DNA of 64,000 nt from Acidihalobacter sp. (GTDB lineage: Bacteria; Pseudomonadota; Gammaproteobacteria; DSM-5130; Acidihalobacteraceae), in the NCBI GenBank assembly GCA_027013225.1, contig JALUXU010000058.1:95114-159113 (forward strand). Direction: 5' to 3'. Below, piece by piece: positions 14,098 through 54,525 of this stretch; the first letter of the stretch is position 1; every line of letters begins with the position of its first letter. The notes below the pieces were generated by a model. It was not told the DNA's origin. It did no database searches and was given only the letters and a program-made list of their open reading frames with translations. The position numbers and the translations under genes are program-made.

Positions 14098-15102
14098 TCA
14101 CGGCGGTGAGAGCCGGTTTTCGCTCTCCCTTCCGGCGAGAAAAGCCGCCGCGTTGTGTACGGTGGTCTCGGCGATGGTCTGCAAGGCTTCACGGGTGAAG
14201 TAGGCCTGATGCGCGGTCACCAAGACGTTGGGGAAGGTGAGCAGGCGCTCGAACACATCATCCGGAATCACTTCGTCCGACAGGTTGCGGAAATACAGAT
14301 CACCCTCTTCTTCATACACATCCAGCGCCACGCCGCCGAGATGGCGCGCCTTGAGCGCATCGATGAGCGCCCTGGCATCCACCAGCGCGCCGCGCGAGGT
14401 GTTGATGAGCATGGCCCCGTCCTTCATTTGCGACAGCGCTGCCGCGTCGATCAAATGCCGGGTATCCGGAGTCAGCGGCGCATGCAGGCTGAGGATGTCC
14501 GTCTCGACCAGCAAGTTCGGCAGGGCGACGTATTCCACACCGAGCGTTTCGAGTTCGGGGTTCCTGACGGGGTCGAAAGCCAGCAGGCGGCAGCCGAAGC
14601 CGTGCAGTATTTTCGCCAGAACCGAGCCGATCTTGCCGGTGCCGACGATGCCCACCGTCTTGCCGTGCATGTCGAAGCCGAGCAGGCCGTCGAGCAGGAA
14701 ATTGCCTTCGCGCACCCGGTGCCAGGCGCGGTGAATCTTGCGGTTGAGAGACAGCATCAGGCCGACGGCGAATTCGGCTACCGAATGAGGCGAGTAACGG
14801 GTGACGCGCATCACCGTGAGGCCGAGTCTCGTCGCGGTCGCGAGATCGACGTTGTTGTAGCCGGTGCAGCGCAGCAGGACGAGCTTCACTCCGGCGCCAG
14901 CGAGGGCCTCCAGCGTGGGCCGCGCCAGATCGTCGTTGACGAAGGCGCACACGGCCTCATGGCCCTTGGCCAGCACGGCGGTGGCCGGGTTGAGCGGCGC
15001 TTCGCAGAACTGCCAGTCCACGGCAGGCGCTTGCTTCGCCTTGGCGGCGGCCTCGAGGAATTCGCGGTCGTAGGGGCGGGTGCTGTAGACGAGTATATTC
15101 AT
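14098..15102 (-). CDS. ldhA: D-lactate dehydrogenase, 2-hydroxyacid dehydrogenase family
   Basis: 334 residues, the usual length of NAD-dependent D-lactate dehydrogenase, which reduces pyruvate to D-lactate and re-oxidises NADH during fermentation. The Rossmann motif GIVGTGKIGSVLA, the catalytic Arg in NTSRGALVD, the Glu in the EEEGDLYF region and the His in TAHQAYFTREAL are in the D-LDH arrangement; the last two distinguish it from phosphoglycerate dehydrogenases. Start ATG 15102 has GGAG eight bases upstream and overlaps the stop of the PfkB-family kinase gene by four bases, so the two are translationally coupled. It supplies the lactate branch of the carbon cluster. Confidence 0.9.
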   Translation of the reverse strand: MNILVYSTRPYDREFLEAAAKAKQAPAVDWQFCEAPLNPATAVLAKGHEAVCAFVNDDLARPTLEALAGAGVKLVLLRCTGYNNVDLATATRLGLTVMRVTRYSPHSVAEFAVGLMLSLNRKIHRAWHRVREGNFLLDGLLGFDMHGKTVGIVGTGKIGSVLAKILHGFGCRLLAFDPVRNPELETLGVEYVALPNLLVETDILSLHAPLTPDTRHLIDAAALSQMKDGAMLINTSRGALVDARALIDALKARHLGGVALDVYEEEGDLYFRNLSDEVIPDDVFERLLTFPNVLVTAHQAYFTREALQTIAETTVHNAAAFLAGRESENRLSPP

Positions 15103-16073
15103 GGTTGGCTCTCCAGACAGGTTTCGTCGCGGCTCACTTCAATTTCCCGAAGCAAGGATTGCATTTGATTGTAGCCGAACAATTGCGTACCGGGCTGGGC
15201 GGCGGTGCCGCTGCCGCAGGCCAGCCCCAGGCGCAACGCCTCGGCAGGGCTCTCGCCGCGGGCCAGGGCGGCGACGATGCCCGCCAGCATGGAATCGCCC
15301 GCGCCCACGGTTGACTTGACTTCGACCTTGGGTGCGGCTGCGTGGTAGCTGTGCTTGTCGTCCACCAACAGCGCCCCTTCGCCGCCCATGGACACGCACA
15401 CATAGTCGATGCCGCGCGCCTGCAATTCGCACGCGGCGCGGCGCACGTCCTCAAATTCGGGCAGTGGGTGGCCCACGAGTTGCTCCAATTCATAGCGATT
15501 GGGCTTGATCAGAAAGGGGTGGGCGTCGATGGCATGGGCCAGCATGGGGCCGGGCGCGTCGATCACCGGATGCGCGGCCTGCAAACGCAGTTCGCGCGCG
15601 ACATCGGCATAGAAGTCCTGGCCGACACCCGGACAGAGCGATCCGGTCAGCACGGCATAGCCGCTGCCGGCAAGTCCGAGCACTTCGTCCACCAGATCCT
15701 GCAAGGCCAGCTTGCTGAGCGGCGGGCCGATGCCGCTGATCTCGAACTGGGCGCGCGGCTCCTGTTGCTGCAAGGTGACATTGATGCGCGTCTCGCCCTC
15801 GATACGCTGGCAATGCGGATGATCCAGCTCGTGGGCCACCAGCCGCTCCAGCAATTCGCCGATTTCGCCGGCGACTACGCAGCAGGCATGGGCCGGCACA
15901 TGCAGGCGTTTGAGTGCGCGCGCGACATTGATGCCATTGCCGCCGGGGTCGTAACGGGTGGCGGTGGCATGGACTTTCTGATCCTCGATAAGATGTGGGA
16001 TATCATAGCTCACATCCACGCACGGGTTGAGCGTCAGGGTCACGATGGGTGGGAGAGATGGGGATGTCGTCAT
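15099..16073 (-). CDS. PfkB-family hexose-phosphate kinase (1-phosphofructokinase-like)
   Basis: 324 residues of the ribokinase/PfkB fold, in the 1-phosphofructokinase and minor 6-phosphofructokinase subgroup. Visible features are TLTLNPCVDVSYD at the N-terminus, the substrate loop PGGNGINVARAL, IKPNRYELEQLVG and the catalytic GAGDSMLAG with its base Asp. No other phosphofructokinase is in the window, so this one most likely feeds fructose 1,6-bisphosphate to the aldolase at 31876; 6-phosphofructokinase, 1-phosphofructokinase or tagatose-6-phosphate activity cannot be separated by sequence alone. It is the first gene of a two-gene unit with ldhA. Confidence 0.85.
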   Translation of the reverse strand: MTTSPSLPPIVTLTLNPCVDVSYDIPHLIEDQKVHATATRYDPGGNGINVARALKRLHVPAHACCVVAGEIGELLERLVAHELDHPHCQRIEGETRINVTLQQQEPRAQFEISGIGPPLSKLALQDLVDEVLGLAGSGYAVLTGSLCPGVGQDFYADVARELRLQAAHPVIDAPGPMLAHAIDAHPFLIKPNRYELEQLVGHPLPEFEDVRRAACELQARGIDYVCVSMGGEGALLVDDKHSYHAAAPKVEVKSTVGAGDSMLAGIVAALARGESPAEALRLGLACGSGTAAQPGTQLFGYNQMQSLLREIEVSRDETCLESQP

Positions 16074-16109
16074 GGCTGTTATCTCTAGGTTGAAAGCGCA
16101 TGTGGAAAA

Positions 16110-16138
16110 TTGTGAGCAGAAGCGATTCGGAATAGACT
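16110..16138 (+). promoter_or_regulatory. possible sigma70 promoter of the DsrE-family gene
   Basis: TTGTGA (16110-16115), 17 bases, TAGACT (16133-16138). It lies in the 177-base divergent gap between the PfkB-type kinase and the DsrE-family gene. The match is moderate. Confidence 0.35.
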
Positions 16139-16250
16139 ACTAATAGCCCATGGCCTATACACGGCCCATTTCCATGCTGCTGCCCGCCGTATTTGGGCTA
16201 TATCGGCAAGCAGGGCGGCGGCACTGTAAACACTTGGAAGGAGTCCGATC

Positions 16251-16625
16251 ATGTCAGAACAAGCCCCTGATCTCGTCATCATTCTCATTACCGGAAAGGA
16301 AAATCCCAAGCGCCTGCCGTCGGCGTTCTTTCTGGCCTCCACCGCCGCTGCCATGGAGCAGGACGTGGTGATGTATTTCACCGGACCCGCCACCGAGCTG
16401 CTCAAGGCCGGTGAGGCGGAAAAGATCTTTCCTCTCGAAGGCGGAAAGAACGTCAAGCAGTTCATGGAACTCGCCCTGGAAAACGGCGTGCGCATGATCG
16501 GCTGCCAGCAGTCACTGGATCTCAACGGCATGAGCAAGGACGATCTTGGCATGGATTTGCCCCTGCTCAACCCGAGCAATGCGCTGCCGACATTGGGCGC
16601 GGCGGGCAAGGTGCTCACCTGGTAA
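16251..16625 (+). CDS. DsrE family protein
   Basis: 124 residues of the DsrE/DsrF-like fold. It begins with a hydrophobic strand (DLVIILITGKENPKRLPSAF), followed by VVMYFTGPATELLKAG and a cysteine in MIGCQQSLDLNGM, the position of the sulfur-carrying cysteine in related proteins. It differs from the DsrE-like protein at 10063. It is monocistronic: its own promoter region lies upstream and a strong terminator follows directly. It is the only plus-strand gene between the methyltransferase and the chloride channel. A role in sulfur or redox transfer is likely from the family but not shown. Confidence 0.85.
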   Translation: MSEQAPDLVIILITGKENPKRLPSAFFLASTAAAMEQDVVMYFTGPATELLKAGEAEKIFPLEGGKNVKQFMELALENGVRMIGCQQSLDLNGMSKDDLGMDLPLLNPSNALPTLGAAGKVLTW

Positions 16626-16643
16626 CAAGGTCATTACTCATGG

Positions 16644-16678
16644 CGCGGCGCACCCCATGCGTGCGCCGCGTTGTTTTT
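16644..16678 (+). terminator. rho-independent terminator after the DsrE-family gene
   Basis: CGCGGCGCAC and GTGCGCCGCG form a perfect 10-bp GC stem with a 7-base loop, followed by TTGTTTTT. It starts 19 bases after the stop at 16625 and its tail touches the stop codon of the converging glgX. Confidence 0.88.
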
Positions 16679-18771
16679 CAATGCTCATCCGCGGCGAGCA
16701 GGATCGCGCTGCTGCGACCTTCGCAGCGATAGTTGCCCTTCACCTCGCGAGGCACTGTGGCAGCATCGATCACGGCTGCAGAGGGTTCTTCAAAAGTATC
16801 GACAAGCACGCTCCAGCGGCGGGCGCCCTCTCCGGGAAGCGCGAAATCCACTCGTTCGCACCCGGCATTGAACAGTAGGCACAGATCACCGGTGGAGGCC
16901 AAGATATAAACGCCCAGGCGGCGGGCGGTAGGCTCATTCCATTCAGGCTGTTCGCCATCGGGAGCGAAGAAGCGTATGTCTTGCTCGCTGTACCAGGCAT
17001 CCCGCGACAGCACGGGATGCGCCCGTCGCAGAGCGATAAGCGCCTTGACGAAGCGGTGTAGTTCCCGGTTTTTTTCCAATAATGACCAGTCGTACCAGCT
17101 GATTTCATTGTCCTGGCACCACGCATTGTTGTTGCCCTGTTGGGTGCGGCGGAATTCATCGCCGCCTAGCATCATGGGCACACCGCGCGAGACCAGCAGG
17201 GTCACGAAGAAATTTTTTATCTGCCTGAGACGCAATGCATCCAGGTCTGGATCGTCGCTGGGGCCTTCCACGCCATAATTGTCGCTGTAGTTGGCATTCT
17301 CGCCATCCTGGTTGTTTTCACCATTGGCTTCGTTGTGCTTGTGCGCATAACTGACCAGATCGTTGAGGGTGAAACCATCGTGGCAGGTGACGAAATTGAT
17401 GCTCGACGACGGGCTCTTTCCCGTTGGGCGGTACAGATCCGAGCTGCCGCAAAGGCGGGTGGCGAAGTCACCCATCAGGCCGTCGTCGCCGCGCCAGAAA
17501 CGGCGTATATCGTCGCGAAAGCGGCCGTTCCATTCGGCCCAGCGGGTATTGGAAAAGCGCCCCACCTGATAGGCGCCCGCGGCGTCCCAGGCCTCGGCGA
17601 TTAGTTTGGTGCCGCGCAGCACCGGATCGGCGGCAATGCGTGCTGGCAGGGGCGCATCCTCGGGCAAGGTGCCTTCCTGACTGCGCGCCAGTACCGAGGC
17701 CAGATCGAAGCGGAATCCGTCCACCCGCAGCTCGCACACCCAATGCCGCAGCGCTTCGATGATGAAGTCCTGCACGGCAGGATGGCTGGCGTTGATGCTG
17801 TTGCCAGTGCCGGAAAAATTGCGATAGTGTTCGCGCTCGGGCTCGAGCAGGTAGTACACGGTGTTGTCCAGCCCACGCAGGTGCAAGGTGGGGCCAGACT
17901 CATCGCTTTCTGCGCTGTGATTGAATACCACGTCGAGAATGATCTCGATGCCGTGGCCGTGAGCCGCCTCCACCAGTTCCCGGAAAGCCTCTATGGGGTC
18001 ATCGTCGCAGGCATAGTTCGCCTTGGGCGCGAACCAGGCGACGGGGTCGTAGCCCCAATAGTTGCGCAGATGCTCGCCGGTTTCGGGATGGCGCACCTGC
18101 GTGCCCCATTCATTGAACTCGAACACGGGCAGCAGCTCGATCGCGGTCACTCCCAGGTCGGCCAGGTAGGGCAGCTTTTCGATCACGCCGCGGTAGGTGC
18201 CAGGATGGTCCACCCCGGAGGAAGGATGAATGGTCAGGCCGCGCACATGGGTTTCGTAGATTACCGTTTCGTTCCAGGGTCGGCGGGGAAACGGCGCCAC
18301 TTTCCTTGGCGTGCGACGGGCGGCGACTATGGATTTGGCCATTTGCCCAGCATCGTCCCTGGAGTCCGGGCGTCCTGTGTCCCGCCCTTCGGCATCCACT
18401 TCATAACCGTGGGCGGGTTCGAAATCCCAACGCGGCGGCGAAACCACCCAGCGGGCGCAGGGATCAAGCAGCAGTTTGTGGCGATTGAAACGCAACCCCT
18501 CTTCAGGGCGGTAGGGACCGTCGGCGCGAAAACCGTAAAGTTGCCCCGCCTTAAGGCCTGGAATCCAGATATGCCAAACGTCGCCGGTGCGATGCTGGGC
18601 GGGATCGAGTTCGTATGCCTTGCTTGGGTGAGCGTCCTCGACATGGTCATAGAGCTCCACCCACATACGCTCGGCGTGTCGGCTGTAAACGGCGAAGTTG
18701 ACGCCGGTTTCTTCCACCTGTGCACCGAGTGGATAAGGGAAGCCGGCGTGTGGTGTGTCAGTGTTGTTCAT
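16678..18771 (-). CDS. glgX: glycogen debranching enzyme
   Basis: 697 residues, GH13 isoamylase type, in the usual GlgX/TreX size range. It hydrolyses alpha-1,6 branches left by glycogen phosphorylase. An N-terminal CBM48-like domain (GAQVEETGVNFAVYSRHAE) precedes the barrel. Catalytic motifs are DVVFNHSAE, the nucleophile in DGFRFDLASVL, the acid in IAEAWDAAG and FVTCHDGFTLNDLV. I start at ATG 18771, which overlaps the DUF202 stop as ATGA. The frame stays open 107 codons further upstream, but that stretch is the DUF202 gene in another frame. It works with glgP at 32790 to mobilise glycogen. Confidence 0.95.
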   Translation of the reverse strand: MNNTDTPHAGFPYPLGAQVEETGVNFAVYSRHAERMWVELYDHVEDAHPSKAYELDPAQHRTGDVWHIWIPGLKAGQLYGFRADGPYRPEEGLRFNRHKLLLDPCARWVVSPPRWDFEPAHGYEVDAEGRDTGRPDSRDDAGQMAKSIVAARRTPRKVAPFPRRPWNETVIYETHVRGLTIHPSSGVDHPGTYRGVIEKLPYLADLGVTAIELLPVFEFNEWGTQVRHPETGEHLRNYWGYDPVAWFAPKANYACDDDPIEAFRELVEAAHGHGIEIILDVVFNHSAESDESGPTLHLRGLDNTVYYLLEPEREHYRNFSGTGNSINASHPAVQDFIIEALRHWVCELRVDGFRFDLASVLARSQEGTLPEDAPLPARIAADPVLRGTKLIAEAWDAAGAYQVGRFSNTRWAEWNGRFRDDIRRFWRGDDGLMGDFATRLCGSSDLYRPTGKSPSSSINFVTCHDGFTLNDLVSYAHKHNEANGENNQDGENANYSDNYGVEGPSDDPDLDALRLRQIKNFFVTLLVSRGVPMMLGGDEFRRTQQGNNNAWCQDNEISWYDWSLLEKNRELHRFVKALIALRRAHPVLSRDAWYSEQDIRFFAPDGEQPEWNEPTARRLGVYILASTGDLCLLFNAGCERVDFALPGEGARRWSVLVDTFEEPSAAVIDAATVPREVKGNYRCEGRSSAILLAADEH

Positions 18772-19142
18772 ATCAATATCTCTCGCACGATATAGGCGAC
18801 TAGAAACAGGCCCATGAGGGCGACCGCGCCACCCAGGGCGAGGTTGAGCCAGGTGCCGCTGTAGATCAAATGATCCTCGCTGTCGATCAGGCGGCGGTTG
18901 CGGATGAAGTTCCAGGTGGACAGGGCCACCAGGATCAGGCCGGTGAGTATCATCACCAGGCCGGCGCCTTCGGCACGCAAGCCGGGGGATTTGATGTGCA
19001 CCGAGGTGGCGAGACTGATGTAGCGCAGGAAAAGATCGAATTTTTCGATCACGAAACCGAACGCCATCAGCGCGATGGCGGTACGTATCCACGCGAGATA
19101 GGTTCGCTCGTTGGCGGCGTGGTCACGGAAATTTTCGATCAT
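18768..19142 (-). CDS. DUF202 (YidH-like) inner-membrane protein
   Basis: 124 residues with the family start MIENFRDHAANERTYLAWIR and three hydrophobic helices (about 22-42, 62-80 and 98-120). The DUF202 family is widespread; its function is not known. It is packed between the universal stress protein and glgX with four-base overlaps on both sides, so it is part of the 21804-16678 operon. No ligand or partner is visible beyond this context. Confidence 0.88.
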   Translation of the reverse strand: MIENFRDHAANERTYLAWIRTAIALMAFGFVIEKFDLFLRYISLATSVHIKSPGLRAEGAGLVMILTGLILVALSTWNFIRNRRLIDSEDHLIYSGTWLNLALGGAVALMGLFLVAYIVREILI

Positions 19143-19624
19143 TCGCGGGGTTCATCGTCAGCAGCAGGAGCGGCGGCGGGTATGGCCAACAAGGGCAGAG
19201 TCAGGCCGTGGAGCAGAGATTCGGTGGTACTTCCGGAGAGCCAGCGTGACAAGCCGTGGTGCCCATGCGTGCCGAGCACCAGCAGGTCAGCACCCCAGCG
19301 CATCGCTGCCTCCCGGATGTGTTGGGCCACTTGGCCATCCGGCGCTTCGATGAGTTCGTACTCCGGCTCAAGACCGGCTTTTTTGGTCAGATTGACTGCT
19401 TCGTCCAGCACATGCTCGGCGCCGCTCTTCAGGTTGGCGTCCAGGGTTTGGGGATCGATCCAGCCGAGTTCGGCGCCGCCAAAGGCTTCGCTGGCTTCGT
19501 CGACCACAGTGATGATTTTGAGGGCCGCGCTTTGATCCAGCGCAAGGTCGATAGCCGCGCGCAGGCCGGCGTGCGCGGCCAGACTGTCGTCGATGGGAAC
19601 GAGGATGCGTTGGTAAATGCTCAT
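19139..19624 (-). CDS. universal stress protein, UspA family
   Basis: 161 residues. The UspA fold starts YQRILVPIDDSLAAHAGL and ends with the nucleotide-binding signature GTHGHHGLSRWLSGSTTES, in which the G-x2-G-x9-G-S/T spacing is intact, so it should bind ATP. The cytoplasmic C-terminus is Ala/Pro/acid rich. It lies 24 bases after the TauE/SafE-family permease and overlaps the DUF202 gene. Universal stress proteins commonly accompany energy-limitation genes; a second one lies at 54575. Confidence 0.93.
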   Translation of the reverse strand: MSIYQRILVPIDDSLAAHAGLRAAIDLALDQSAALKIITVVDEASEAFGGAELGWIDPQTLDANLKSGAEHVLDEAVNLTKKAGLEPEYELIEAPDGQVAQHIREAAMRWGADLLVLGTHGHHGLSRWLSGSTTESLLHGLTLPLLAIPAAAPAADDEPRE

Positions 19625-19648: not shown

Positions 19649-20434
19649 TCATGGATAGGTGCCGTGTGGACGGTGGTCCACGTCGTGATGCAGGGGGCGG
19701 CCCGCAATCTCATGCAGGCCCAGCAAGAACAGCAGCGCGGCGAAGATCCAGCGCAGCATTTTCTCCGGCATGTGTACCGCGAGCAGACCACCGATCACAG
19801 TGCCGATGATGATGCCAATCGCCAGCCAGGGCAAGGCCCGCCACCGCACCGTGCCTTCCCGCCAGTCTTCGGCCACCCCGCTGGCGATCGCCGGCAGGCG
19901 GGAGACCAGAGAGGATCCCTGCGCCAGTTGTTGTGGCATGTTCATCCCCATCACGAACAAGGGTGCCAGCACCGGTCCGCCGCTGATGCCAACTACGCCG
20001 GCGATGATTCCCGCCACTATACCCACAAGAATCAGCCAGGGAACCGGCCAAGCCGAGGCAAAACCGGCATGTGCCGAATGTTTGAAGATCAGCGCGGCAG
20101 CGCCCAGCAGCACGATGACGCCGAAAAACCGCCGTAAGCTGAGCTGCGGCCAGCCGGCGCTCAAGCGCGCCGCGATAGGCGCGCAGATCATCGCGGGAAT
20201 GCCCGTCCACAGCACGGTATCCCAGTTTACGCTGCCATGCAGTCCATAGGTAAGCGCACCGGTAATGGCGGTGAAAAACGCCGCCGCCATGGCGGTGCCG
20301 CGCGCTTCGAGCTGGCTCATGCCCACCCATTCGGTGAGCAGCGGGATCAAGAGCGTGCCGCCGCCCAGGCTGGCCAGCCCGCCGCCGAAACCGGTGATCA
20401 ATCCGCTCACCAGGAGCCGCGGCGCGCGTTTCAC
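19649..20434 (-). CDS. TauE/SafE (TSUP) family permease
   Basis: 261 residues, about eight hydrophobic helices, with the duplicated TSUP motif: GFGGGLASLGGGTLLIPLL near the N-terminus and GVVGISGGPVLAPLFVMG in the second half. Members export sulfite, sulfoacetate or other small organic anions across the inner membrane; which one applies here is not visible. The start is GTG 20434, whose GTGA overlaps the stop of the upstream nuclease gene, so translation is coupled. The C-terminal tail is histidine-rich (LHHDVDHRPHG), which might bind metal. Confidence 0.88.
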   Translation of the reverse strand: MKRAPRLLVSGLITGFGGGLASLGGGTLLIPLLTEWVGMSQLEARGTAMAAAFFTAITGALTYGLHGSVNWDTVLWTGIPAMICAPIAARLSAGWPQLSLRRFFGVIVLLGAAALIFKHSAHAGFASAWPVPWLILVGIVAGIIAGVVGISGGPVLAPLFVMGMNMPQQLAQGSSLVSRLPAIASGVAEDWREGTVRWRALPWLAIGIIIGTVIGGLLAVHMPEKMLRWIFAALLFLLGLHEIAGRPLHHDVDHRPHGTYP

Positions 20435-21804
20435 AGGGTGATTTCCGCATCTTTTTCCGGCATGCTCACTTCGGTGTCATGCAGGTGTTGGGCGAAGCTG
20501 CGCATGGCCTTTTCCTCGCCATGCACGAGAATGGTCTTCGCCGGCGAAAGGGCCTGATGCCAGGCGAGCAGTTCATTGCGATCGGCATGGGCGGAAAAGC
20601 CGTTGATGGTATAGAGACGGGCGCGCACGGGAATTTGGTCACCGAACAGTTTCACCGTCTTCGCGCCGTCGATGATAATCCGCGCCAGCGTGCCGGGGGC
20701 CGCATAACCCACGAAAATTACACTGGAATCATTGCGCCACAGATTATGCCGCAGGTGATGGCGCACCCGTCCGCCGGTACACATGCCGGAGCCCGCCATG
20801 ATCACCGCGCCTCCGGCGAGCTGGTTGAGGGCGATGGAATCCGCAGTTTGGCGAGTGAACTTCAAGCCGGGGAGAGCGAATGGATCCTTGCCGCCATCGA
20901 ACAGGGCGAGAGTCTCGGCGTCGTAACATTCGGGATGATGGCGAAAGATTTCTGTGGCCGAGATCGCCATGGGAGAATCGAGGAACACCGGCAGGTGCCG
21001 GGGCAAGATCTTTTTTTCCACGCCTTCGCGCAGGTAAAAAAGAATTTCCTGGGCGCGTTCCAGCGCGAAGGTGGGGATGATGACATTGCCGCCGCGTTCA
21101 AGAGTGTCGTTGACGGCGCCATAGAGTTCATCTATTGAGGGCCCCAATGGTTTATGAAGGCGATCGCCATAGGTGGTTTCCATTACCACCGCATCGGCGC
21201 GCGGCGGGATCTGAGGATCGCGCAGAATGGGGCGCCCGCTGTTGCCCAGGTCTCCCGAGAAGATCACTGAAGCGCCATCTTTTTCTTCGATGCGGATGCT
21301 GGCCGAGCCGAGGATGTGGCCGGCGTCATGGAAAGTGGCCGTAAGGCCCGGAGAAAGTTCCAGGGTTTTGCCATATTCCGCACTGCGACCAAAATAGTCC
21401 ATCGCATTGAGGGCGTCCAGAGTAGTATACAGCGGTTCGCGCGGCGTCTTGCCATGACGTAGGGCGTGGCGCAAGTGACGTTCGTTTTCCTCTTCCTGTA
21501 GGTGCGCGGAATCCAGCATGACCACGCGGGCTAGTTCGCGGGTGGCTGAGGTGGTGATGATTTCCCCACTGAAGTCGCGTTTGACCAGAAGCGGAATACG
21601 GCCACAATGGTCGAGGTGGGCGTGAGTCAAAAGCAGGATATCGATGGTCTTGGGATCAAAACCGAAGTCTTCGCTATTTTCTTCGTCGAGTTCGCGGCCG
21701 CCCTGATACATGCCGCAGTCGATGAGAATGCGTTTGCCTGCGGCTTCGAGAAGGTGGCAAGAACCGGTTACATTGCGGTCGGCGCCGTGGAAGGAAATTT
21801 TCAT
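20431..21804 (-). CDS. metallo-beta-lactamase/beta-CASP ribonuclease-like protein
   Basis: 457 residues. The zinc motifs are complete: HAHLDHCG near residue 62, DAGHILGSAS, FSGDLGNSGRP, and the C-terminal GFSAHADR of the RMMBL segment, with a beta-CASP insert between them. This is the CPSF73/YSH1-like bacterial group, which processes RNA as endo- or exonuclease. Start ATG 21804 follows an AAGGAG site. It leads an operon with a TSUP permease, universal stress protein, DUF202 and glgX. The MITE at 21899 ends 94 bases upstream. An RNA nuclease in a glycogen operon could reflect post-transcriptional control under stress, but this is inference. Confidence 0.93.
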   Translation of the reverse strand: MKISFHGADRNVTGSCHLLEAAGKRILIDCGMYQGGRELDEENSEDFGFDPKTIDILLLTHAHLDHCGRIPLLVKRDFSGEIITTSATRELARVVMLDSAHLQEEENERHLRHALRHGKTPREPLYTTLDALNAMDYFGRSAEYGKTLELSPGLTATFHDAGHILGSASIRIEEKDGASVIFSGDLGNSGRPILRDPQIPPRADAVVMETTYGDRLHKPLGPSIDELYGAVNDTLERGGNVIIPTFALERAQEILFYLREGVEKKILPRHLPVFLDSPMAISATEIFRHHPECYDAETLALFDGGKDPFALPGLKFTRQTADSIALNQLAGGAVIMAGSGMCTGGRVRHHLRHNLWRNDSSVIFVGYAAPGTLARIIIDGAKTVKLFGDQIPVRARLYTINGFSAHADRNELLAWHQALSPAKTILVHGEEKAMRSFAQHLHDTEVSMPEKDAEITL

Positions 21805-21898: not shown

Positions 21899-22060
21899 CA
21901 GAACCACGCCATCTAACTGTGGCGGAGCGGGTGTCTGCCCGGAAAAACGCAGTGAATACATCCCTGTAGGCTCGACGGCGGCCTCCTTGCCGCCGACGTT
22001 TTCCGAGCAGACGCCCGCTCTGCTTTTCAACGGCTTAGGAATTAAGATGACAGGGCCCTG
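21899..22060. mobile_element. MITE copy 2 (162 bp), inserted in the end of a hydrolase gene
   Basis: Same element as at 11923 and 61083, with ends CAGAACCACGCCATCTAA and CAGGGCCCTG. A perfect 10-base direct repeat TTGAGGTAAC flanks it (21889-21898 and 22061-22070). Its right end now encodes the last residues and the stop codon of the alpha/beta hydrolase on the minus strand. The 237-base gap before the ribonuclease gene is otherwise its upstream region. Confidence 0.88.
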
Positions 22061-30805: not shown

Positions 30806-30815
30806 GACATTCTCC

Positions 30816-32775: not shown

Positions 32776-32789
32776 GGGTATTTCTCCTT

Positions 32790-43993: not shown

Positions 43994-44119
43994 GTTCAGA
44001 TCCTTTTTGTTTGGGTTGAAGGGCCATTATGCCTTCTAATCGGATATCTTGAGTCTGTCGGGTCCGGAGGATCGTGGCAACGCGCAGATTCCCCCCGTAT
44101 CCGGCAGGCTGCCGACCCG

Positions 44120-44150
44120 AATGTTTCATCACGCTCCCCGATAAAACATT
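44120..44150. terminator. 11-bp hairpin between the AhpD-like gene and gpmA
   Basis: AATGTTTCATC and GATAAAACATT pair with a single wobble around a 9-base loop. It begins 11 bases downstream of the AhpD-like stop codon on the minus strand and precedes the gpmA leader. No U-tract is present, so it may be an attenuator, a factor-dependent terminator or an mRNA-end stabiliser. Confidence 0.45.
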
Positions 44151-44160
44151 TGGGCGGGCA

Positions 44161-44496: not shown

Positions 44497-44512
44497 GGTC
44501 GTTCTCCGGTGT

Positions 44513-47546: not shown

Positions 47547-48284
47547 TTACTTTGGACGGTTGGTGGGGGTATGGATATGAAAGCGACGCTCGGCCTTTTG
47601 CAGAAGGCGTTCCAGATCGGCAATGCGCAGCACACCATTGCCGGCATGCAGGATCCCCTCGCGCCGGAAACGACCGATCAGACGGGTGATGACCACCCGC
47701 GTGCTGCCGATGAGGCGGGCGATATCGCCGTGTGAAAGTCCTTGCAGGCGGGGAGGGGCGCCGTCGACGGTGGGTTCGTTTTCGAGATGAAGCAAGAGCA
47801 GGTGGGCGAGGCGGGTGGTGGTGTCATGCAGGGCAAGATCCTCGTTGAATTCCGCTAGCTCGCGCAGCCTTCGGGCAGCGCAGCGCATCGCTGCCTGGCG
47901 CATGGGCGGATAGTCGTTCAGCCATTGCCGCCACAGAGTCAGGGGGGCATGGACTGCCTCAACCTCATCCAGGGATTCAGCCAGGACCTCATGCGGCTGG
48001 CCATCGAGCAGGGTGACGAGATTGTGGCCTTCGCCGGGCCCGAGCAAAAACAGGGAGACGGAGCGCCCATTCTGCGGATGTTGCGCTTCGACGCTGACTC
48101 GGCCCGAGGCAATCAGAAAAAAACGTTTTTTGGTTTCCGAAACATCCATGACGAGACTATGCTCTGCCCAGGAGATCGGCTTGAGATGCGGCAGGATGAT
48201 TTCCGCAAGCACATCTTTAGGCAGGTCTTTGGTGAGCGGAGCCTCTTTGAGTTTTTCGAGAAGATTGTTGCGATAGCTGTTCAT
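47547..48284 (-). CDS. Crp/Fnr family transcriptional regulator
   Basis: 245 residues. An N-terminal cyclic-nucleotide-binding-like beta roll (FFLIASGRVSVEAQHPQNGRSV) is followed by a long dimer helix and a C-terminal winged helix-turn-helix (LSHGDIARLIGSTRVVITRLIGRFRREGIL). The Fnr four-cysteine iron-sulfur set is absent, so it is not a classical Fnr; the effector could be a nucleotide, haem or redox signal. I start at ATG 48284 (MNSYRNNLLEKL); the frame stays open 96 codons upstream through the divergent promoter. It is divergent from the chloride channel gene and adjoins the carbon cluster, so it is the best candidate for its regulator. Confidence 0.9.
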   Translation of the reverse strand: MNSYRNNLLEKLKEAPLTKDLPKDVLAEIILPHLKPISWAEHSLVMDVSETKKRFFLIASGRVSVEAQHPQNGRSVSLFLLGPGEGHNLVTLLDGQPHEVLAESLDEVEAVHAPLTLWRQWLNDYPPMRQAAMRCAARRLRELAEFNEDLALHDTTTRLAHLLLLHLENEPTVDGAPPRLQGLSHGDIARLIGSTRVVITRLIGRFRREGILHAGNGVLRIADLERLLQKAERRFHIHTPTNRPK

Positions 48285-48393
48285 GTCTTTGCCCTGGGTA
48301 GGTGAAGTAGCCCGGCCGATGAGTGTAACGCTGTGTCCGCACAAGCGTCGGTGCGAATTGGATTGGCGCCCCGATGACGCGTCCAGATAGTTT

Positions 48394-48407
48394 ACAATAC
48401 AATTTGT
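48394..48407. promoter_or_regulatory. candidate operator in the crp/fnr-chloride channel divergent region
   Basis: ACAATACAATTTGT has ACAA and TTGT half-sites separated by six bases. It lies in the 154-base gap between the divergent regulator and channel genes, a usual place for an autoregulatory site. It is not an Fnr or Crp consensus. Confidence 0.3.
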
Positions 48408-48438
48408 GATTTTGAGGCTTGCAGAGAGGGATTCCAAG

Positions 48439-50286
48439 ATGCGCAACGATAAAAAACCGTCTCCTGAAGAGCAACGGGCCACTTCGGGGCAGAACGATCG
48501 AAGCGCATCGCTCGGCCATTTTTTTTCCGTCAACCCTTTGACGCATTTCATGGTCATCGTGTTCGTCGGCATCGTCGCCGGTCTGGGCGCGGTGGCATTC
48601 CGAAAGCTGATCGCCTTTTTTCATAATCTGTTTTTCTTCGGGCAGTTTTCTTTCGTCTATGACTACCTAGAGCACACTTCCGCGAGTCCGTGGGGCGCAT
48701 GGATTATCCTCGCGCCGGTAATCGGCGGACTGGGCGTGGCCTGGCTGGTACAGAATTTCGCGCCCGAGGCCAAGGGTCACGGCGTGCCGGAAGTCATGGA
48801 TTCTATCTATTACCAAAAAGGCCTGATGCGTCCGCAAGTGGTTCTGATCAAGGCGCTGGCCTCGGCGCTCAACATCGGCACCGGCGGCTCGGTGGGGCGC
48901 GAAGGGCCGATCATCCAGATGGGTGCGGCTTTCGCCGCCAACCTGTCGCGCTGGCTGCGGTTGGATCCCTGGCAACGCTACGCTTTGATCGCGGCTGGAG
49001 CAGGAGGGGGCATTGCCGCCACCTTCAATACGCCGGCGGGAGGCATGCTGTTCGCCGTCGAGCTGATGATGGTGGAAATCAGCGCCCGTACTCTGGTGCC
49101 GGTAATGATGGCTACAGGGATTGCCACTTATGTCAGCCGTATTTTTTTGGGCGATCATCCCTCATTCATTATTCCGCCCTTAATGATTTCGGAAACGACC
49201 CAGACTTCTCCCGGCGCTTTTGCGTCTTATTTGTTTCTGGGCGTGTTCACCGGCCTTGTGGCTTTGTTATTCATGCGCTCGATCTACTGGTTCGAGGATC
49301 GCTTCGAGGCGATACCGGGGAATTACTACACGCGCCATGCCCTGGGCATGTTATTGGTCGGCATCACGATCTATCTCATGCTGCACTTCACCGGGCGCTA
49401 TTACGTGGAAGGCGTGGGCTATGCCACGGTGCAGCAAGTGCTAACTCAGCAAGGGGGGCTGGCGATCGGTCTTTTGTTGATTCTGGCCGCCTTGAAGATC
49501 CTCGTCACTTCGCTGACCCTGGGCTCGGGCGGCTCGGGCGGCATTTTTTCGCCTTCGCTCTTCATCGGCGCGACTTTTGGGGCGGCCTTCGCGCTTATTG
49601 CCCATGTGATCTATCCTCCCCTCGATCTGAATATCACCACGGCTGCGGCGCTGGGTATGGCGGCCATGGTAGGGGCCGGCACCGGCGCGGCCATGACCGG
49701 CGCGGTGATGATCTTTGAGATGACTGGTGATTACCGCGTCATCATTCCATTGATCGTGGTGGTGTCGGTCGCCTACGCCACTCGCCGGCTGATCACCTCC
49801 GATACGATCTACACTCTCAAACTGCTTCGCCGCGGGCACGACATTCCAGAAAGCCGGCAGAGCAATCTTTATCTGAGCCTGCCGGCCAGCGACGTGGTGC
49901 GCACCGATTTCCTGCGCGTGCCGGCCGACGCTCCCTGGCCGCCGCCGGGGCTATCCCACTTTCCTATGGGCGGCATGCCGCATCTGTTGCTGGAAGATGC
50001 GCATGGCCGCATCGTCGGGGTGGTGCCGGCGGCCCGGGTGGCGGCCAACTGGAAGCGGGCGGGTGCCAGCCTGCGCACGCTGGCGCTGAGCGATTGGCAA
50101 TGCGCCGCGCCCGACACGCCCATCGTGGATCTGCTGCATCGGGTGCGCCGCGACGAAGTGGTCGTGTTCATCCTAGGGGAGTGCACATCAGACGGCGTTG
50201 GCCGGGTCGAGGGTGTGCTGCACTGGCCTATGCTGGTTCAGGCCGCCGGCTTGCCCTCGCGCGAATCCCTGTCAAGCGGGAGCTAG
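48439..50286 (+). CDS. voltage-gated chloride channel / ClC antiporter with C-terminal domain
   Basis: 615 residues. The ClC pore motifs are recognisable: GHGVPEVMDSIYY (GSGIP position), GSVGREGPIIQMGA (GREGP) and GSGGSGGIFSPSLFIGA (GxFxP). About ten helices span residues 30-420. The last 170 residues are soluble and resemble a CBS-type regulatory region. ClC proteins exchange chloride for protons or conduct chloride, and often help acid resistance, which would fit the proton ATPase of the cluster. Start ATG 48439 has an AGGGA site; an ATG 11 codons earlier lacks one. It is divergent from the Crp/Fnr gene. Confidence 0.92.
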   Translation: MRNDKKPSPEEQRATSGQNDRSASLGHFFSVNPLTHFMVIVFVGIVAGLGAVAFRKLIAFFHNLFFFGQFSFVYDYLEHTSASPWGAWIILAPVIGGLGVAWLVQNFAPEAKGHGVPEVMDSIYYQKGLMRPQVVLIKALASALNIGTGGSVGREGPIIQMGAAFAANLSRWLRLDPWQRYALIAAGAGGGIAATFNTPAGGMLFAVELMMVEISARTLVPVMMATGIATYVSRIFLGDHPSFIIPPLMISETTQTSPGAFASYLFLGVFTGLVALLFMRSIYWFEDRFEAIPGNYYTRHALGMLLVGITIYLMLHFTGRYYVEGVGYATVQQVLTQQGGLAIGLLLILAALKILVTSLTLGSGGSGGIFSPSLFIGATFGAAFALIAHVIYPPLDLNITTAAALGMAAMVGAGTGAAMTGAVMIFEMTGDYRVIIPLIVVVSVAYATRRLITSDTIYTLKLLRRGHDIPESRQSNLYLSLPASDVVRTDFLRVPADAPWPPPGLSHFPMGGMPHLLLEDAHGRIVGVVPAARVAANWKRAGASLRTLALSDWQCAAPDTPIVDLLHRVRRDEVVVFILGECTSDGVGRVEGVLHWPMLVQAAGLPSRESLSSGS

Positions 50287-50367
50287 CAACGCGGGCAAGC
50301 TGATCCGGCGGTACCGGGCCTGTCTTCAGCCCGTATGAATATCAGGCGGTCTTGCTGCTGAGCGGAC

Positions 50368-51663
50368 TCAGAACCGCACCGGCCGCACGTAGGCGTGCTT
50401 GCCGGCGAAACGGGCGGCAATGCCGAGTTCCTCTTCGATGCGCATAAGCTGGTTGTATTTTTCCACGCGCTCGCCGCGTGCCGGCGCACCAGTTTTGAGA
50501 TGTCCGGTATCCAGCGCCACGGTCAGGTCGGCGATAAAGCTGTCCACGGTCTCCCCGGAGCGATGCGAGACGAAGGCGCCCCAGCCGTGGTGCATGGCAA
50601 GCCGGGCGGCGGCAATGGTTTCTGTGAGCGTGCCGATCTGATTGAGCTTGATCAGCACGGCGTTGGCGATGTCTTGCTCGATGCCTTTGGCGATGATGGC
50701 CGGATTGGTGCAGAACACGTCGTCACCGACCAGCTCGATGGTGTCGCCAAGGGCGTGATTGAGACGTTTCCAGCCTTCCCAGTCATCCTGGGCCATGCCG
50801 TCTTCAAGCAGCGCGAGGGGGTAGGTATCGACCAGGCGTTCGTAGTATTCGACCATTTCGCCGGCTTCGAGTTTGCGGTTCTCGGTGCGCAGGTGATAGC
50901 GTCCTTCTTCGAAGAATTCGCTGGAGGCGGGGTCCATGGCGATACCTACGTCCGTGCCGGCGCGCAGACCGGCCTTGGCGATGGCCTGGACAATCAACTC
51001 CAGCGGTTCTTCGTTGGATTGGACGTGCGGGGCGAAGCCGCCTTCGTCGCCGACGCCGACCGATAGACCCTTCTGTTCCAGCAGAGCCTGCAGCGCGTGG
51101 TAAACCTCCGCCCCCCACTCGACGGCTTCGCGCAGGCTGCCGGCACCGTAGGGGGCGATCATGAATTCCTGGAAGTCCGCACCCTGCCAGTGCGCGTGAA
51201 CGCCACCATTGAGAATGTTCATGTGCGGTACCGGCAGGCGCGTGGCGCCGGGGCCACCCAGATAGCGGTAGAGGGGCAGGTCGGAAGCGGACGCCGCAGC
51301 GCGGGCCACCGCCAAGGATACGCCGAGGATGGCGTTGGCGCCCAGCTTGCCTTTGTTCTCGGTGCCGTCCATGGAGATCATGGTTTCATCGATGGCGGCC
51401 TGGTCGCGGGCATCGATGGTCAGCAGGTCGGGCGCTATGACGTCGTTGACGTGGGCAACGGCCTTGAGCACGCCCTTGCCGCCGAAGCGCTTGCTGTCGC
51501 CGTCGCGCAATTCCACCGCTTCGCGTTCGCCGGTGGAAGCGCCGGAGGGCACGGCGGCGCGCGATGTGACGCCGCAAGCGAGGGTGCATTCGACCTCCAC
51601 GGTCGGGTTGCCGCGTGAATCCAGGATTTCGCGGGCGTTCAATGCGGTGATGCGTGTATCCAT
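50368..51663 (-). CDS. eno: enolase
   Basis: 431 residues, full length. It converts 2-phosphoglycerate to PEP. ALNAREILDSRGNPTVEVE at the N-terminus, PSGASTGEREAVELRDGD, GDEGGFAPHVQSNEEPLEL, LLEDGMAQDDWEGW and SHRSGETVDSFIADLTVAL are canonical, including the metal and catalytic residues. It lies four bases after the pyruvate kinase stop on the same strand, so the last two glycolytic steps are cotranscribed. The 81-base gap to the converging channel gene holds only a weak hairpin. Confidence 0.96.
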   Translation of the reverse strand: MDTRITALNAREILDSRGNPTVEVECTLACGVTSRAAVPSGASTGEREAVELRDGDSKRFGGKGVLKAVAHVNDVIAPDLLTIDARDQAAIDETMISMDGTENKGKLGANAILGVSLAVARAAASASDLPLYRYLGGPGATRLPVPHMNILNGGVHAHWQGADFQEFMIAPYGAGSLREAVEWGAEVYHALQALLEQKGLSVGVGDEGGFAPHVQSNEEPLELIVQAIAKAGLRAGTDVGIAMDPASSEFFEEGRYHLRTENRKLEAGEMVEYYERLVDTYPLALLEDGMAQDDWEGWKRLNHALGDTIELVGDDVFCTNPAIIAKGIEQDIANAVLIKLNQIGTLTETIAAARLAMHHGWGAFVSHRSGETVDSFIADLTVALDTGHLKTGAPARGERVEKYNQLMRIEEELGIAARFAGKHAYVRPVRF

Positions 51664-51667
51664 GGGT

Positions 51668-53137
51668 CTATTCTCCTGTAGGTAAATGAGTTTGGTTCAG
51701 GCTTTTTTCCACGCCAGGCAGTATCTCCACCCGATTGGTAGTGCCAGGGTGGCCGCGCGAAGGCCCCTGAGTAAAAATCAGCGGCCCGCCATACAGCTTG
51801 TGCGTTTTCATCCAGTCGAGAGCGATTTCTTGCCAGTCGCGCTCATCCTCGCCTATGAACACGGGGTATACGCCATAGCTTAACAGCAGACGTTGGCAGG
51901 TGCTGCGATGGCGAGACAATGCAATCGTCCATGCCGGCAAATGAAAGCGGGCGATGCGGCGGCTCGTCGCGCCCGTCTCGGTGGGTGTGAAGACGTAGGG
52001 GGCGCGCAGACGTTCCGCGGCGGTGACGACATTGAGTGAAACCACCTCCTCGATACGTTGATGAATATCGGCGTTTGCGTGCAAAGATTCCATCGGGGGC
52101 GGCTCGGAGCGGGCGGTTTCGGCCTGACGGGCGATGCGGCCGAGCATTTGAACTGCCTGCACCGGATACGCGCCGATGGCCGATTCTTCCGACAGCATGA
52201 CCGCATCCGTGCCGTCGAGCACGGCATTGGCCACGTCCGTGGCTTCGGCGCGGGTCGGCCGACTGTGGTCGACCATCGATTCCAGCATCTGGGTGGCGGT
52301 GATGACGGGTTTGTGCAGTCGATTGGCTTTGCGGATCAGGCGTTTTTGCACCAAAGCAATGGTTTCTATCGGCGTCTCCACGCCGAGATCTCCGCGTGCG
52401 ACCATGCAGCCATCGGCAACTGCCAGAATTTCGTCCACATGATCCAGTGCGTCGGCACGTTCGATTTTGGCGATCAAATAGGGGGCGGCACCCAGCGCTT
52501 CGGTTTCGCGGCGAACGCGCTCGATGTCGTCGGCGTTCTCCACGAAGCTGATGCTGACCATGTCCACCTCCTGTTCGCAGGCGAAGGCAAGCAGGGCTTG
52601 ATCGCGGTCGGTGAAGGCCGGCAGGCGGATGTGCAGGTGGGGGATGTTCAAACCCTTGTGCGAGCGCAGTTCGCCGCCCACCGTGACCCGGCAGCGGACT
52701 TCAGTATCGGTGGTCTCGAGCACCTTGAGCTGGATGAAGCCGTCGTTGAGGAAAATCGATTCGCCGGTGCGCACGGCGCGTGGCAGCTCTGCAAATTCAG
52801 GCACGGAGATGCGTTCTGCATTGCCGGCAGCGTCCTCCGTCGTCAAGGTAAGAAGATGCCCGTGATGAAGGCGCAAGGGGTCGGGTGCGATCCTGCCAAT
52901 GCGCAGCTTGGGGCCGGGCAGATCGGCGAGAATCGCCACAGAGAGGCCGGTTTGCTGTGTGGCTTCACGCAATCGCCGGATGGTGGCGGCATGGCTGTCG
53001 GGTTCGCCATGCGCCAGATTGAGACGAGCCACGTTCATGCCCGCTCGGAGCATGCGCGCGAGAATGGCCACATCATCCGAGGCGGGGCCGATGGTGCATA
53101 CGATTTTAGTCTTGTGTGAGGGAAATATGCGGCTCAT
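51668..53137 (-). CDS. pyk: pyruvate kinase
   Basis: 489 residues, full length. HKTKIVCTIGPASDD at the N-terminus, MNVARLNLAHGEPDSH, the metal-binding IAKIERADALDHVDEIL, GCMVARGDLGVETP and VITATQMLESMVDHSRPTRAE are canonical. It makes pyruvate and ATP from PEP. I start at ATG 53137, which overlaps the stop of the flavoprotein gene as ATGA; the frame is open seven codons further. It forms a three-gene unit: flavoprotein, pyk, eno. With ppsA at 23609 the window has both directions of the PEP-pyruvate step. Confidence 0.96.
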   Translation of the reverse strand: MSRIFPSHKTKIVCTIGPASDDVAILARMLRAGMNVARLNLAHGEPDSHAATIRRLREATQQTGLSVAILADLPGPKLRIGRIAPDPLRLHHGHLLTLTTEDAAGNAERISVPEFAELPRAVRTGESIFLNDGFIQLKVLETTDTEVRCRVTVGGELRSHKGLNIPHLHIRLPAFTDRDQALLAFACEQEVDMVSISFVENADDIERVRRETEALGAAPYLIAKIERADALDHVDEILAVADGCMVARGDLGVETPIETIALVQKRLIRKANRLHKPVITATQMLESMVDHSRPTRAEATDVANAVLDGTDAVMLSEESAIGAYPVQAVQMLGRIARQAETARSEPPPMESLHANADIHQRIEEVVSLNVVTAAERLRAPYVFTPTETGATSRRIARFHLPAWTIALSRHRSTCQRLLLSYGVYPVFIGEDERDWQEIALDWMKTHKLYGGPLIFTQGPSRGHPGTTNRVEILPGVEKSLNQTHLPTGE

Positions 53138-54525
53138 GACTTGCTTCCCTGCATGCAATGGGCGCGCTTTTGCAAGGCGTCACCGCAGGCGGCCACGATA
53201 GGATGAACCGGCGCGGTCAGGCGCGGTTGGCTGCCGAACTGGAAACTGGCCAGATCGGCGGCTGTGGCGTGCAGCTGAATGGCCACGCCGATGATATTGA
53301 CCAGCTCGCCGGTGGTCGGTCCGCCGATGACCTGGCCGCCGAGCAGGCGCTCGGTGGTGGCGTCGAAAATCAGGCGGCAGAAGACTTCATGCGTGTCCGG
53401 CATGCTGGCCGGATGATGGTCGGGCAGTCGGGAAGAGCCGGTGAAGACTTCGAAGCCAATGGCGAGCGCGGTTTCTTCCGTCAGGCCGGCCACGCCGAAG
53501 GCGAGGTTGCCGACCTGGCTGGCATACACGGCGATGGAGCCGGCATTGGCGCGCGGCAGGCGCAGGGCGTAGAGGTTCATGCCGGCGATACGGCCTTCGG
53601 CGGCCGCTTGGGAGGCGAGCAGGGCATGGCTGGCGCGGCGGGTGAAGTAGTCCTGTTTGTGGGCGCAGTCACCGACCGCGAACACGTCCAGATGTTCCCG
53701 GCAGCGCTGGAATCCATCCACCCAGATGCCACCGGAGCGGGACATGGTCAGGCCGGTGGTTTCGGCCAGTTTAGTGTTCGGTCGGGCGCCGATGGCGAGC
53801 AGTACGGCATCGGTTTCTATGGCATTCCCGTCGCCCAGCCGCACCCGCCCGGCCCGGGTACCCCCCTCTGCAGGTTCTATGGCCGTTACGGTGACGCCGG
53901 TGTGCAGGTGGACGCCTTCGTTGCGCAGTTGCTCTTCGACCCGCGTGCAGGCATCGGTATCGAAAGAAGCAGCCAATAGATGAGGACGTAGTTCGACAAT
54001 GTGGACTTCTATGCCGCGCTTTAGCAATTCATCGGCGAATTCGACGCCGATGAATCCACCGCCGATGACGACCAGGCGCTTCACCCCCGGTAACGTTTCG
54101 GTGAGCAACTGATCGAGGTAGTCGTAGTCCTTGACAACAGTGAATACGCCGTCGAGTTCCCGGCCCGGAATGGGAGGGACGAAAGGCACCGACCCGGTGG
54201 CGAACACCAGCCGTTCCCAGGCGAGGATGCGTCCTGATTCCAGCGTAGCCGTGTGCGCCTTGAGATCAAGGGCGCCGACGTGGTCGATGATCAGATTTCC
54301 GCCGGCCGCCAGAAAGGGGGCGCGGCCAGCCAGATCCTCGTCGGTGCCGCCGAGAGTGCCGAAAATGTAGGGGATGCCGCAGGGCACCACAGCCTCTTCT
54401 TCCGGGCGCACCACGGTGATGCGTTTGCCCGGCCAGAATTGCGCGGCTGTGATGCCGGTCATCATGCCGGCCGGCCCGCCGCCAATGATGAGCACGTCGG
54501 TTTGTTCGTGGGATGTATCGGTCAT
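53134..54525 (-). CDS. FAD/NAD(P)-dependent oxidoreductase, NADH oxidase/CoA-disulfide reductase-like
   Basis: 463 residues. The FAD motif is VLIIGGGPAGMMTGITAA, the NAD motif VVIGGGFIGVEFADELLKRG, and a third FAD segment DVFAVGDCAHKQDYF is present. A single Cys in VVPCGIPYIFG is at the redox position of NADH oxidases and CoA-disulfide reductases, which use one cysteine sulfenate or CoA mixed disulfide. It probably regenerates NAD or reduces a small disulfide. Start ATG 54525 has AAGGA upstream. It is coupled to pyruvate kinase, which suits NAD recycling during glycolysis. Confidence 0.85.
   Translation of the reverse strand: MTDTSHEQTDVLIIGGGPAGMMTGITAAQFWPGKRITVVRPEEEAVVPCGIPYIFGTLGGTDEDLAGRAPFLAAGGNLIIDHVGALDLKAHTATLESGRILAWERLVFATGSVPFVPPIPGRELDGVFTVVKDYDYLDQLLTETLPGVKRLVVIGGGFIGVEFADELLKRGIEVHIVELRPHLLAASFDTDACTRVEEQLRNEGVHLHTGVTVTAIEPAEGGTRAGRVRLGDGNAIETDAVLLAIGARPNTKLAETTGLTMSRSGGIWVDGFQRCREHLDVFAVGDCAHKQDYFTRRASHALLASQAAAEGRIAGMNLYALRLPRANAGSIAVYASQVGNLAFGVAGLTEETALAIGFEVFTGSSRLPDHHPASMPDTHEVFCRLIFDATTERLLGGQVIGGPTTGELVNIIGVAIQLHATAADLASFQFGSQPRLTAPVHPIVAACGDALQKRAHCMQGSKS

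Follow-up and report, generated by a model that had tools for sequence, protein, structure and literature searches.

Genes for an alpha-glucan phosphorylase (GlgP) and acetate kinase (AckA) adjoin each other in the phosphoketolase–AckA–GlgP cassettes of Nitrosomonas marina (L110) and of a Methylophaga thalassica plasmid (L283). The locus described here resembles these cassettes, with a GlgP that is 51–55% identical and an adjoining AckA. It lies in a stretch of 64,000 nucleotides from a genome assigned to Acidihalobacter sp. (the window; contig C58, positions 95114–159113), the right edge of which is the end of the contig. PPK2, class I aldolase, isoamylase and pgm, encoded in one direction, are also shared with the Methylophaga plasmid. 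The run on that plasmid (7843–28900), all in one direction, consists of ppk2, a P-type ATPase gene with a heavy-metal annotation, class I aldolase, isoamylase, pgm, pgi, tkt, glgP, ackA and phosphoketolase; a histidine phosphatase gene and a partial match to gap are also part of it. Further examples include Acidithiobacillus ferruginosus (L064), with E2–ackA–mfs–ptb–pfkB–fadox–fba–pyk–glgP on one strand at 50–66% identity, and Acidithiobacillus AMEEHan p2, with ptb–pfkB–fba–pyk–eno–(lpd-like)–glgP and some of the matches in broken pieces. The Acidithiobacillus clusters are shorter, and the stretches examined gave no match to glyceraldehyde-3-phosphate dehydrogenase (GAPDH), the proton ATPase, PPK2, GlgX or PpsA; p2 and p7 of AMEEHan may be misassembled pieces of chromosome. 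The statement of a first-pass annotation that no locus with all parts of the window had been described hence has to be softened, since smaller and differently composed versions exist, the Methylophaga plasmid among them. A published account of the combined set was not found in the open-access literature searched, as far as its available text extends and with subscription papers outside the scope. The locus is read here, with somewhat more confidence than doubt, as a second glycolysis: isozymes separate from a gene cluster on contig C5 would convert glycogen to acetyl-CoA and on to acetate plus ATP, with lactate dehydrogenase (LdhA) as an outlet for NADH.

The host genome (G000; 2.27 Mb in 73 contigs, rated 99.97% complete) probably belongs to a close relative of Acidihalobacter, which would then be related to acidophilic oxidisers of iron and sulfur. 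The run of genes is located on the minus strand, from usp2 (55042) down to ldhA (14098), and is tightly packed. It is interrupted on the plus strand by a ClC gene (48406–50286) and a DsrE-like gene (16251–16625); nearly all genes lie on the minus strand, as described at first. Among 31 neighbouring pairs measured, seven overlap by 4 bases, one by 8 bases and four by 11–70 bases. In this count, three gene starts were revised to an inner Met, and two further short overlaps occur only with revised starts (ppsA and the open reading frame (ORF) at 26019 by 8 bases, glgX and the DUF202 gene by 4 bases). The many overlaps of 4–8 bases noted at first are thereby borne out.

Gene families were assigned by NCBIfam, Pfam and PDB searches of the window ORFs, and these matches support every enzyme named in the first-pass annotation. 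Unless stated otherwise, all features below are on the minus strand. Curated NCBIfam cut-offs are exceeded by the glycogen debranching enzyme GlgX (16678–18771; TIGR02100 over ORF residues 117–771, with the ORF opening at 19092 and the likely start at an inner Met at 18771), GlgP (32790–35324; TIGR02094, placed in a clade A by class-wide search), type I GAPDH (38908–39912; TIGR01534), phosphoglycerate mutase GpmA (43283–43993; TIGR01258), enolase (50368–51663; TIGR01060) and pyruvate kinase (51668–53158; TIGR01064). The same applies to the E1-alpha (42218–43270; TIGR03182 with 395.1 bits at a cut-off of 393.85, PDB 1ni4) and E1-beta subunits (41224–42207; NF006667) of pyruvate dehydrogenase (PDH), dihydrolipoyl dehydrogenase Lpd (44513–45904; NF004943), AckA (36267–37412; TIGR00016, the sole match in G000), phosphoenolpyruvate synthase PpsA (23609–26131, likely start at an inner Met at 26026; TIGR01418), PPK2 polyphosphate kinase (30816–31613; TIGR03707), a proton-efflux P-type ATPase (28154–30826; TIGR01647 with 985 bits, cut-off 615.5), the class I (DhnA-type) fructose-bisphosphate aldolase (31876–32793; NF005321, PDB 4moz) and the Ptb/Pta-family phosphotransacylase (35345–36274; NF006045, PDB 7vg9). 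The PfkB-family phosphofructokinase of the 1-PFK/6-PFK-2 type (15099–16073; TIGR03168 over cut-off, PDB 2abq and 3cqd) reaches 290.9 bits in the general hexose-kinase model (cut-off 216.4) and, with 280.3 bits, stays just under the 1-PFK cut-off of 292; it is the sole match at E<=1e-10 in each of the five genomes of the family. LdhA (14098–15102) is below all NCBIfam cut-offs, and its best solved relatives, 5z20 (403.7 bits) and 4cuj (362.8 bits), are fermentative D-lactate dehydrogenases. Below cut-off are also the PDH E2-like acyltransferase (39943–41211; TIGR01349), a phosphomannomutase/phosphoglucomutase of 459 residues (46019–47398; NF007088) and a flavoprotein like CoA-disulfide reductases and NADH oxidases (53134–54528; PDB 8a56). 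A short phosphohexomutase-like protein (26933–28036) matches Pfam PGM_PMM domains I and II.

Arranged as a pathway, glycogen would be degraded by GlgP and GlgX and pass by way of a phosphohexomutase, PfkB and the class I aldolase to GAPDH, and from there by way of GpmA, enolase and pyruvate kinase to a likely E1-alpha/beta pyruvate dehydrogenase forming acetyl-CoA. The latter would likely be converted to acetate and ATP by Ptb and AckA, and LdhA is predicted to serve as an outlet for NADH. By textbook stoichiometry, each glucosyl unit would cost one ATP at PfkB and return two each at Pgk, pyruvate kinase and AckA. The predicted yield is five ATP and four NADH with acetate as the product, or three ATP and balanced NADH with lactate. 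Given its likeness to CoA-disulfide reductases and NADH oxidases and the CG-P-Y stretch that it retains in the alignment, the flavoprotein might reoxidise NADH. PPK2 may supply ATP out of polyphosphate, and the proton ATPase may spend ATP for pH control. Flux would be directed outward from glycogen; no glycogen-making gene was found among the scanned ORFs of the locus. As judged from its gene content, the set is probably an exchangeable kit, induced when respiration stops or fails, that would turn glycogen into acetate or lactate for ATP. The locus is not self-contained: Pgi, Tpi and Pgk have no match among the scanned window ORFs, without which the steps from glycogen to acetate are incomplete. 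Pgk is present in the C5 cluster, which would supply it, and Pgi and Tpi, for which no genome search was made, would be required from elsewhere.

The module enzymes are paralogues parallel to another set in G000, namely for gap, pyk and eno, whereas PDH and aldolase are present there as other types. An enolase is encoded on C29 (57% identical), a GAPDH on C5 (42%) and a pyruvate kinase nearby on C5 (38%). Elsewhere in the genome there are also an aceE-type PDH (C9), a class II aldolase, two phosphofructokinases of family PF00365 and a distant phosphorylase match (C47, 26%). The order of the C5 cluster is tkt–gap–pgk–pyk–fba (class II). G000 further contains two RuBisCO genes and three genes of the PF08323 glycogen/starch-synthase family. 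With these paralogues, glycolysis would be able to run at the same time as CO2 fixation uses the other set. The host genome is smaller than those of four relatives (2.27 Mb vs 3.4–3.6 Mb) yet has the fullest module.

These four relatives (G001–G004) show how the parts are distributed within the family. In the synteny check across genomes, G001, the nearest relative, preserves the order of 14 genes of the middle block, log–pgm2–pma–ppk2–fba–glgP–ptb–mfs–E2–E1b–E1a–gpmA–lpd–crp, with identities of 51–85% and all frames open; combinations of these parts also occur in other genomes. Between log and pgm2, where the window has ppsA, G001 contains a ppsA remnant of 85 C-terminal codons; between mfs and E2, where the window has gap, it contains a gap remnant of 18 N-terminal and 19 C-terminal codons. 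A second G001 locus consists of casp, tauE, usp, DUF202, DsrE, pfkB and an ldhA remnant of 66 codons, followed by tetR–dlh–o115–oye, and mirrors the order of the left part of the window without glgX; the module enolase (90%) stands in a third place. The G001 genes casp (L279, 6001–6321) and gap (L154 and L033–L036 joined, 62538–62638) have lost the middle and kept both ends, with casp in frame, and only C-terminal pieces of ppsA and ldhA are left. Supposed glgX remnants in G001 were rejected, since they are an adjacent DUF202 gene translated in a different frame. G003 carries ppk2–crp–eno–pyk–fba–fadox–ptb–ackA–mfs on one strand (54–82% identity), gap–lpd in a second place and pgm2–pfkB–glgP in a third. 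In both G001 and G003, the kit parts are thus spread over at least three places. G002 and G004 contain tetR–glgP–pfkB–pgm2–pyk–fadox–usp adjoining oye–dlh genes; a second clade A glgP of G004 has no further kit genes nearby. AckA matches are found in G003 (65%), G004 (48%) and G001 (44%); PPK2 is present in G001 (78% identical) and G003, and has been reported for DSM 14175 only among four Acidihalobacter strains in the available part of PMC7760498.

Between G000 and G003, the module gap copy is 82% and the other copy 83% identical; this similar divergence fits vertical descent within the family. The data fit one possible history, in which the kit parts go back to the ancestor of the family, have become scattered or are being eroded in the relatives, and are joined only in G000 among the five genomes. 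The same parts are common across the family; the single locus is not. Of the single-locus program proposed at first, the coherent route, the extra copies, the 14-gene order in G001 and the combination of parts elsewhere stand, whereas its status as a unit does not, given the split in G001 and G003, the lack of an AckA match in G002 and the lack of the module enolase in G002 and G004.

Beyond the family, the kit recurs around one clade of GlgP. Phosphorylase matches at E<=1e-150 occur in 132 of 369 genomes of the class; those listed separate, by their identity to the query, into clade A (51–72%) and clade B (38–45%). For 33 glgP copies of clade A and 20 of clade B, neighbourhoods of up to 40 kb were compared with a kit of 28 entries (27 window genes plus the phosphoketolase from L110), a match requiring at least 40% identity and at least 40% coverage. 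The 33 derive from 45 listed clade A matches (at least 50% identity) minus four from G000–G003 and eight uncounted ones (G197, G182, G325, G252, the second of G245, G237, G362 and G017); the clade B loci were chosen from a longer list. Clade A neighbourhoods contain 59 kit matches in 925 kb, 51 of them on the strand of glgP, compared with two in 785 kb for clade B. At least one kit gene is present in 19 of 33 vs 2 of 20 loci (Fisher p 6e-4) and at least two in 14 of 33 vs 0 of 20 (p 4e-4), these and the following p values being approximate because the genomes are related. Without phosphoketolase, the fractions are 17/33 vs 2/20 (p 0.003) and 9/33 vs 0/20 (p 0.0097). Stretches of at least 35 kb are available for 13 of 33 clade A and 19 of 20 clade B loci; within these, again without phosphoketolase, at least two kit genes occur at 9 of 13 vs 0 of 19. 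Chance clustering was rejected by this comparison of the two clades. The fullest other loci hold 11 (G159), 9 (G084), 6 (G282), 5 (G269) and 4 (G066) entries, so that G000, from which the kit was defined, has 27 of 28 entries vs at most 11 in the 33 others. In 11 of the 33 class loci, the clade A glgP has a phosphoketolase (XFP) match nearby. Named cases include Acidithiobacillus ferruginosus L064 and metagenome-assembled genomes of Desulfobulbaceae (L059, GAPDH 73% identical) and Chromatiales (L061). The 80 named loci retained out of 591 confirmed, many of them short, contain ackA matches in 13, P-type ATPase in 10 and glgX in 7 (E<=1e-8), some of these matches being distant.

GlgP of clade A occurs in numerous phyla and also on some plasmids. 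In a quick tree built from 86 GlgP sequences, 30 changes of phylum label are needed, compared with a minimum of 11 and a shuffled mean of 40.5; the labels are clustered yet far from clean, to which paralogues and binning errors may contribute. Fifteen plasmid records contain the GlgP family at E<=1e-100, and five at an identity of at least 46%. The neighbourhood on a Cupriavidus plasmid yielded nothing beyond glgP itself and a weak match to ldhA. On a Hymenobacter psoromatis plasmid (L285, 1149–25144), a clade A glgP and a phosphoglucomutase gene directly follow a set of F0F1 ATP synthase genes arranged as beta, epsilon, ..., A, C, alpha, gamma, with hydrogenase maturation genes nearby. A bolder proposal, which is considered possible and still rather doubtful, is that of a transferable "battery": a whole second glycolysis for CO2-fixing bacteria, reserved for glycogen when the electron acceptor runs out, the blocks of which recombine between phyla and of which G000 holds the fullest version.

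Several observations weigh against the reading as a second glycolysis. No difference in cofactor between the two GAPDH copies was seen in the sequence comparison: an Asp residue, which we take to favour NAD, is present in both, so a division of labour receives no support from the cofactor. The G002 genome has no AckA match, and the substrate specificities of PfkB, E2, Ptb and the phosphohexomutase are putative. PpsA (23609–26131) and pyruvate kinase (51668–53158) together would form a futile ATP cycle unless separately regulated or unless PpsA runs in reverse. Acetate and lactate are weak acids that leak back into acidophile cells, which would speak against a large release of acetate at low pH if the host is an acidophile. 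Of the clade A loci, 14 of 33 are without any kit gene, some of them on short contigs, and the further clade A locus of G017 has none in 60 kb. Without the identity limit, the difference for at least one kit gene is gone (26/33 vs 13/20, p 0.34), mostly by distant glgX-like matches at clade B, and that for at least two stays (18/33 vs 3/20, p 0.008). The Crp/Fnr-family protein (47547–48572; Pfam HTH_Crp_2 and a weak cNMP_binding match) comprises 245 residues from its likely start at an inner Met (48284) and has one cysteine, which would make FNR-type Fe–S oxygen sensing unlikely for the protein beginning there; five more cysteines are encoded upstream of this start, in a part outside the G001 match. 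No exact dyads with 5-base arms are shared over 14 upstream stretches. CRP-like boxes in the window are at chance level (19 vs 17.4 expected), three of them in the listed upstream stretches (31829, 45996 and 55750). FNR-like boxes with up to two mismatches number 29 vs 16.6 expected, above all 100 shuffles; none lies in the listed upstream stretches, and those seen are inside genes or at the start of serS.

A low-oxygen or dormancy stress set clustered by happenstance would account for the two Usp genes, PfkB, PpsA, PPK2, the ATPase and the Crp-like regulator. Survival would then be the role of Usp, PfkB, the P-type ATPase, PpsA, PPK2 and the RNase, with the acetate flux incidental. The locus is also like known hypoxia sets by name (Usp, PfkB-type kinase, PEP synthase, cation ATPase). 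The accessible part of PMC6515984, a precedent for the reading as a second glycolysis as well, lists Usp, a 1-PFK-family kinase, phosphoenolpyruvate (PEP) synthase, phosphoketolase and an MBL-fold hydrolase as induced at 0.5% O2 in Bradyrhizobium diazoefficiens, with PEP synthase, the kinase and phosphoketolase marked as outside the direct FixK2 regulon; that of PMC8044303 names a pfkB cluster, Usp and ctpF for hypoxic M. tuberculosis, the pfkB cluster being DosR-independent according to one table row. Lower glycolysis with PDH and Ptb/AckA exceeds the hypoxia lists as far as these sources give them, and the dyad search found no binding site, which leaves the stress set rather unlikely.

Other explanations differ in the direction or source of carbon. 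Ptb/AckA and PpsA are reversible, and with PpsA present the locus might scavenge or detoxify acetate, Ptb/AckA working toward acetyl-CoA and PpsA upward to handle organic acids and refill glycogen; an acetate–CoA ligase near glgP on an Acidithiobacillus plasmid record agrees with this. Since GlgP, GlgX, PfkB, pyruvate kinase, PDH and LdhA are catabolic by family and the scanned ORFs offer no gene for glycogen synthesis, such a role is improbable. Similarly little credence is given to aerobic or mixotrophic sugar use, in which sugar imported from outside by the MFS porter would be turned by the isozymes into acetyl-CoA for respiration. The sugar-porter-like MFS gene (37409–38977) does lie within the run and is retained in G001 and G003; its NCBIfam matches are all below the curated cut-offs, the substrates of GlgP and GlgX are internal glucan, and Ptb, AckA and LdhA are fermentative by family. 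An accumulation of mobile catabolic genes that do not work together would explain the mosaic composition, the transposase at the contig end, the different splits in the sister genomes and the remnants in G001. Collinear blocks, same-strand overlaps and the repeated co-occurrence around GlgP clade A, with clade B as control, make it very improbable.

The remaining genes of the run include several that were missing from the first list. These are genes for a DUF202 small protein (18768–19142; Pfam), a TauE/SafE-family membrane protein (19649–20434; Pfam), a beta-CASP metallo-beta-lactamase-fold RNase (20431–21804; PDB TTHA0252 2dkf, NCBIfam Cas14/aCPSF1 models below cut-off), a LOG-like (Lysine_decarbox/SLOG) protein (22662–23612; Pfam, 80% in G001) and a CMD-family protein (44161–44496; Pfam), in addition to the MFS porter and the flavoprotein described above. 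Two universal stress proteins are encoded at 19139–19624 (UspE match below cut-off) and 54575–55042 (usp2; Pfam Usp), an alpha/beta hydrolase at 22042–22665 (Pfam) and an ORF with a weak prenyltransferase-toroid match at 26019–26975 (Pfam E 1e-7; not seen in G001). On the plus strand, the DsrE/DsrF-like protein (Pfam) is 89% identical in G001, so the minus ORF of 177 residues opposite to it (16085–16618) is taken as an antisense artefact and was rejected, as was the plus ORF 44074–44598. The ClC chloride channel/antiporter gene (Pfam) lies between crp and eno in the window, and its G001 homologue (71%) between ppk2 and fba; these different neighbours indicate that it moved within the locus. 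Outside the run, a phosphohexomutase-like gene (Pfam domains I and II only) and a methyltransferase gene occupy the plus strand between tetR and ldhA (12294–13987), and a Group 1 DDE transposase gene (62476–63822) is located close to the end of the contig, next to a LysR substrate-binding fragment (61785–62297).

With a second enzyme set, the cell could probably subsist on stored sugar upon failure of its normal energy supply. How a lithoautotroph survives without an electron acceptor, and how its glycolysis avoids undoing CO2 fixation, are hard to test with shared enzymes; clustered extra isozymes, full in G000 and split or eroded in relatives, make both questions testable by expression and deletion. 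Recurrence of the kit around GlgP clade A provides a marker for similar islands in other bacteria.

Compared with the known systems, the hypoxia sets are defined by expression, whereas the window locus is known by gene content alone. With the phosphoketolase cassettes it shares a clade A GlgP and AckA on the same strand. There, acetyl-phosphate would be formed via phosphoketolase, an enzyme without a match among the scanned window ORFs; the window has PfkB, PDH and Ptb instead. Cyanobacteria possess pairs of glycolytic and Calvin-cycle GAPDH, to which the two GAPDH copies of G000, one of them among CO2-fixation genes, are similar. Unlike in these pairs, the organism of the window doubles not only GAPDH but also enolase, pyruvate kinase, aldolase and PDH, and its extra copies are clustered.

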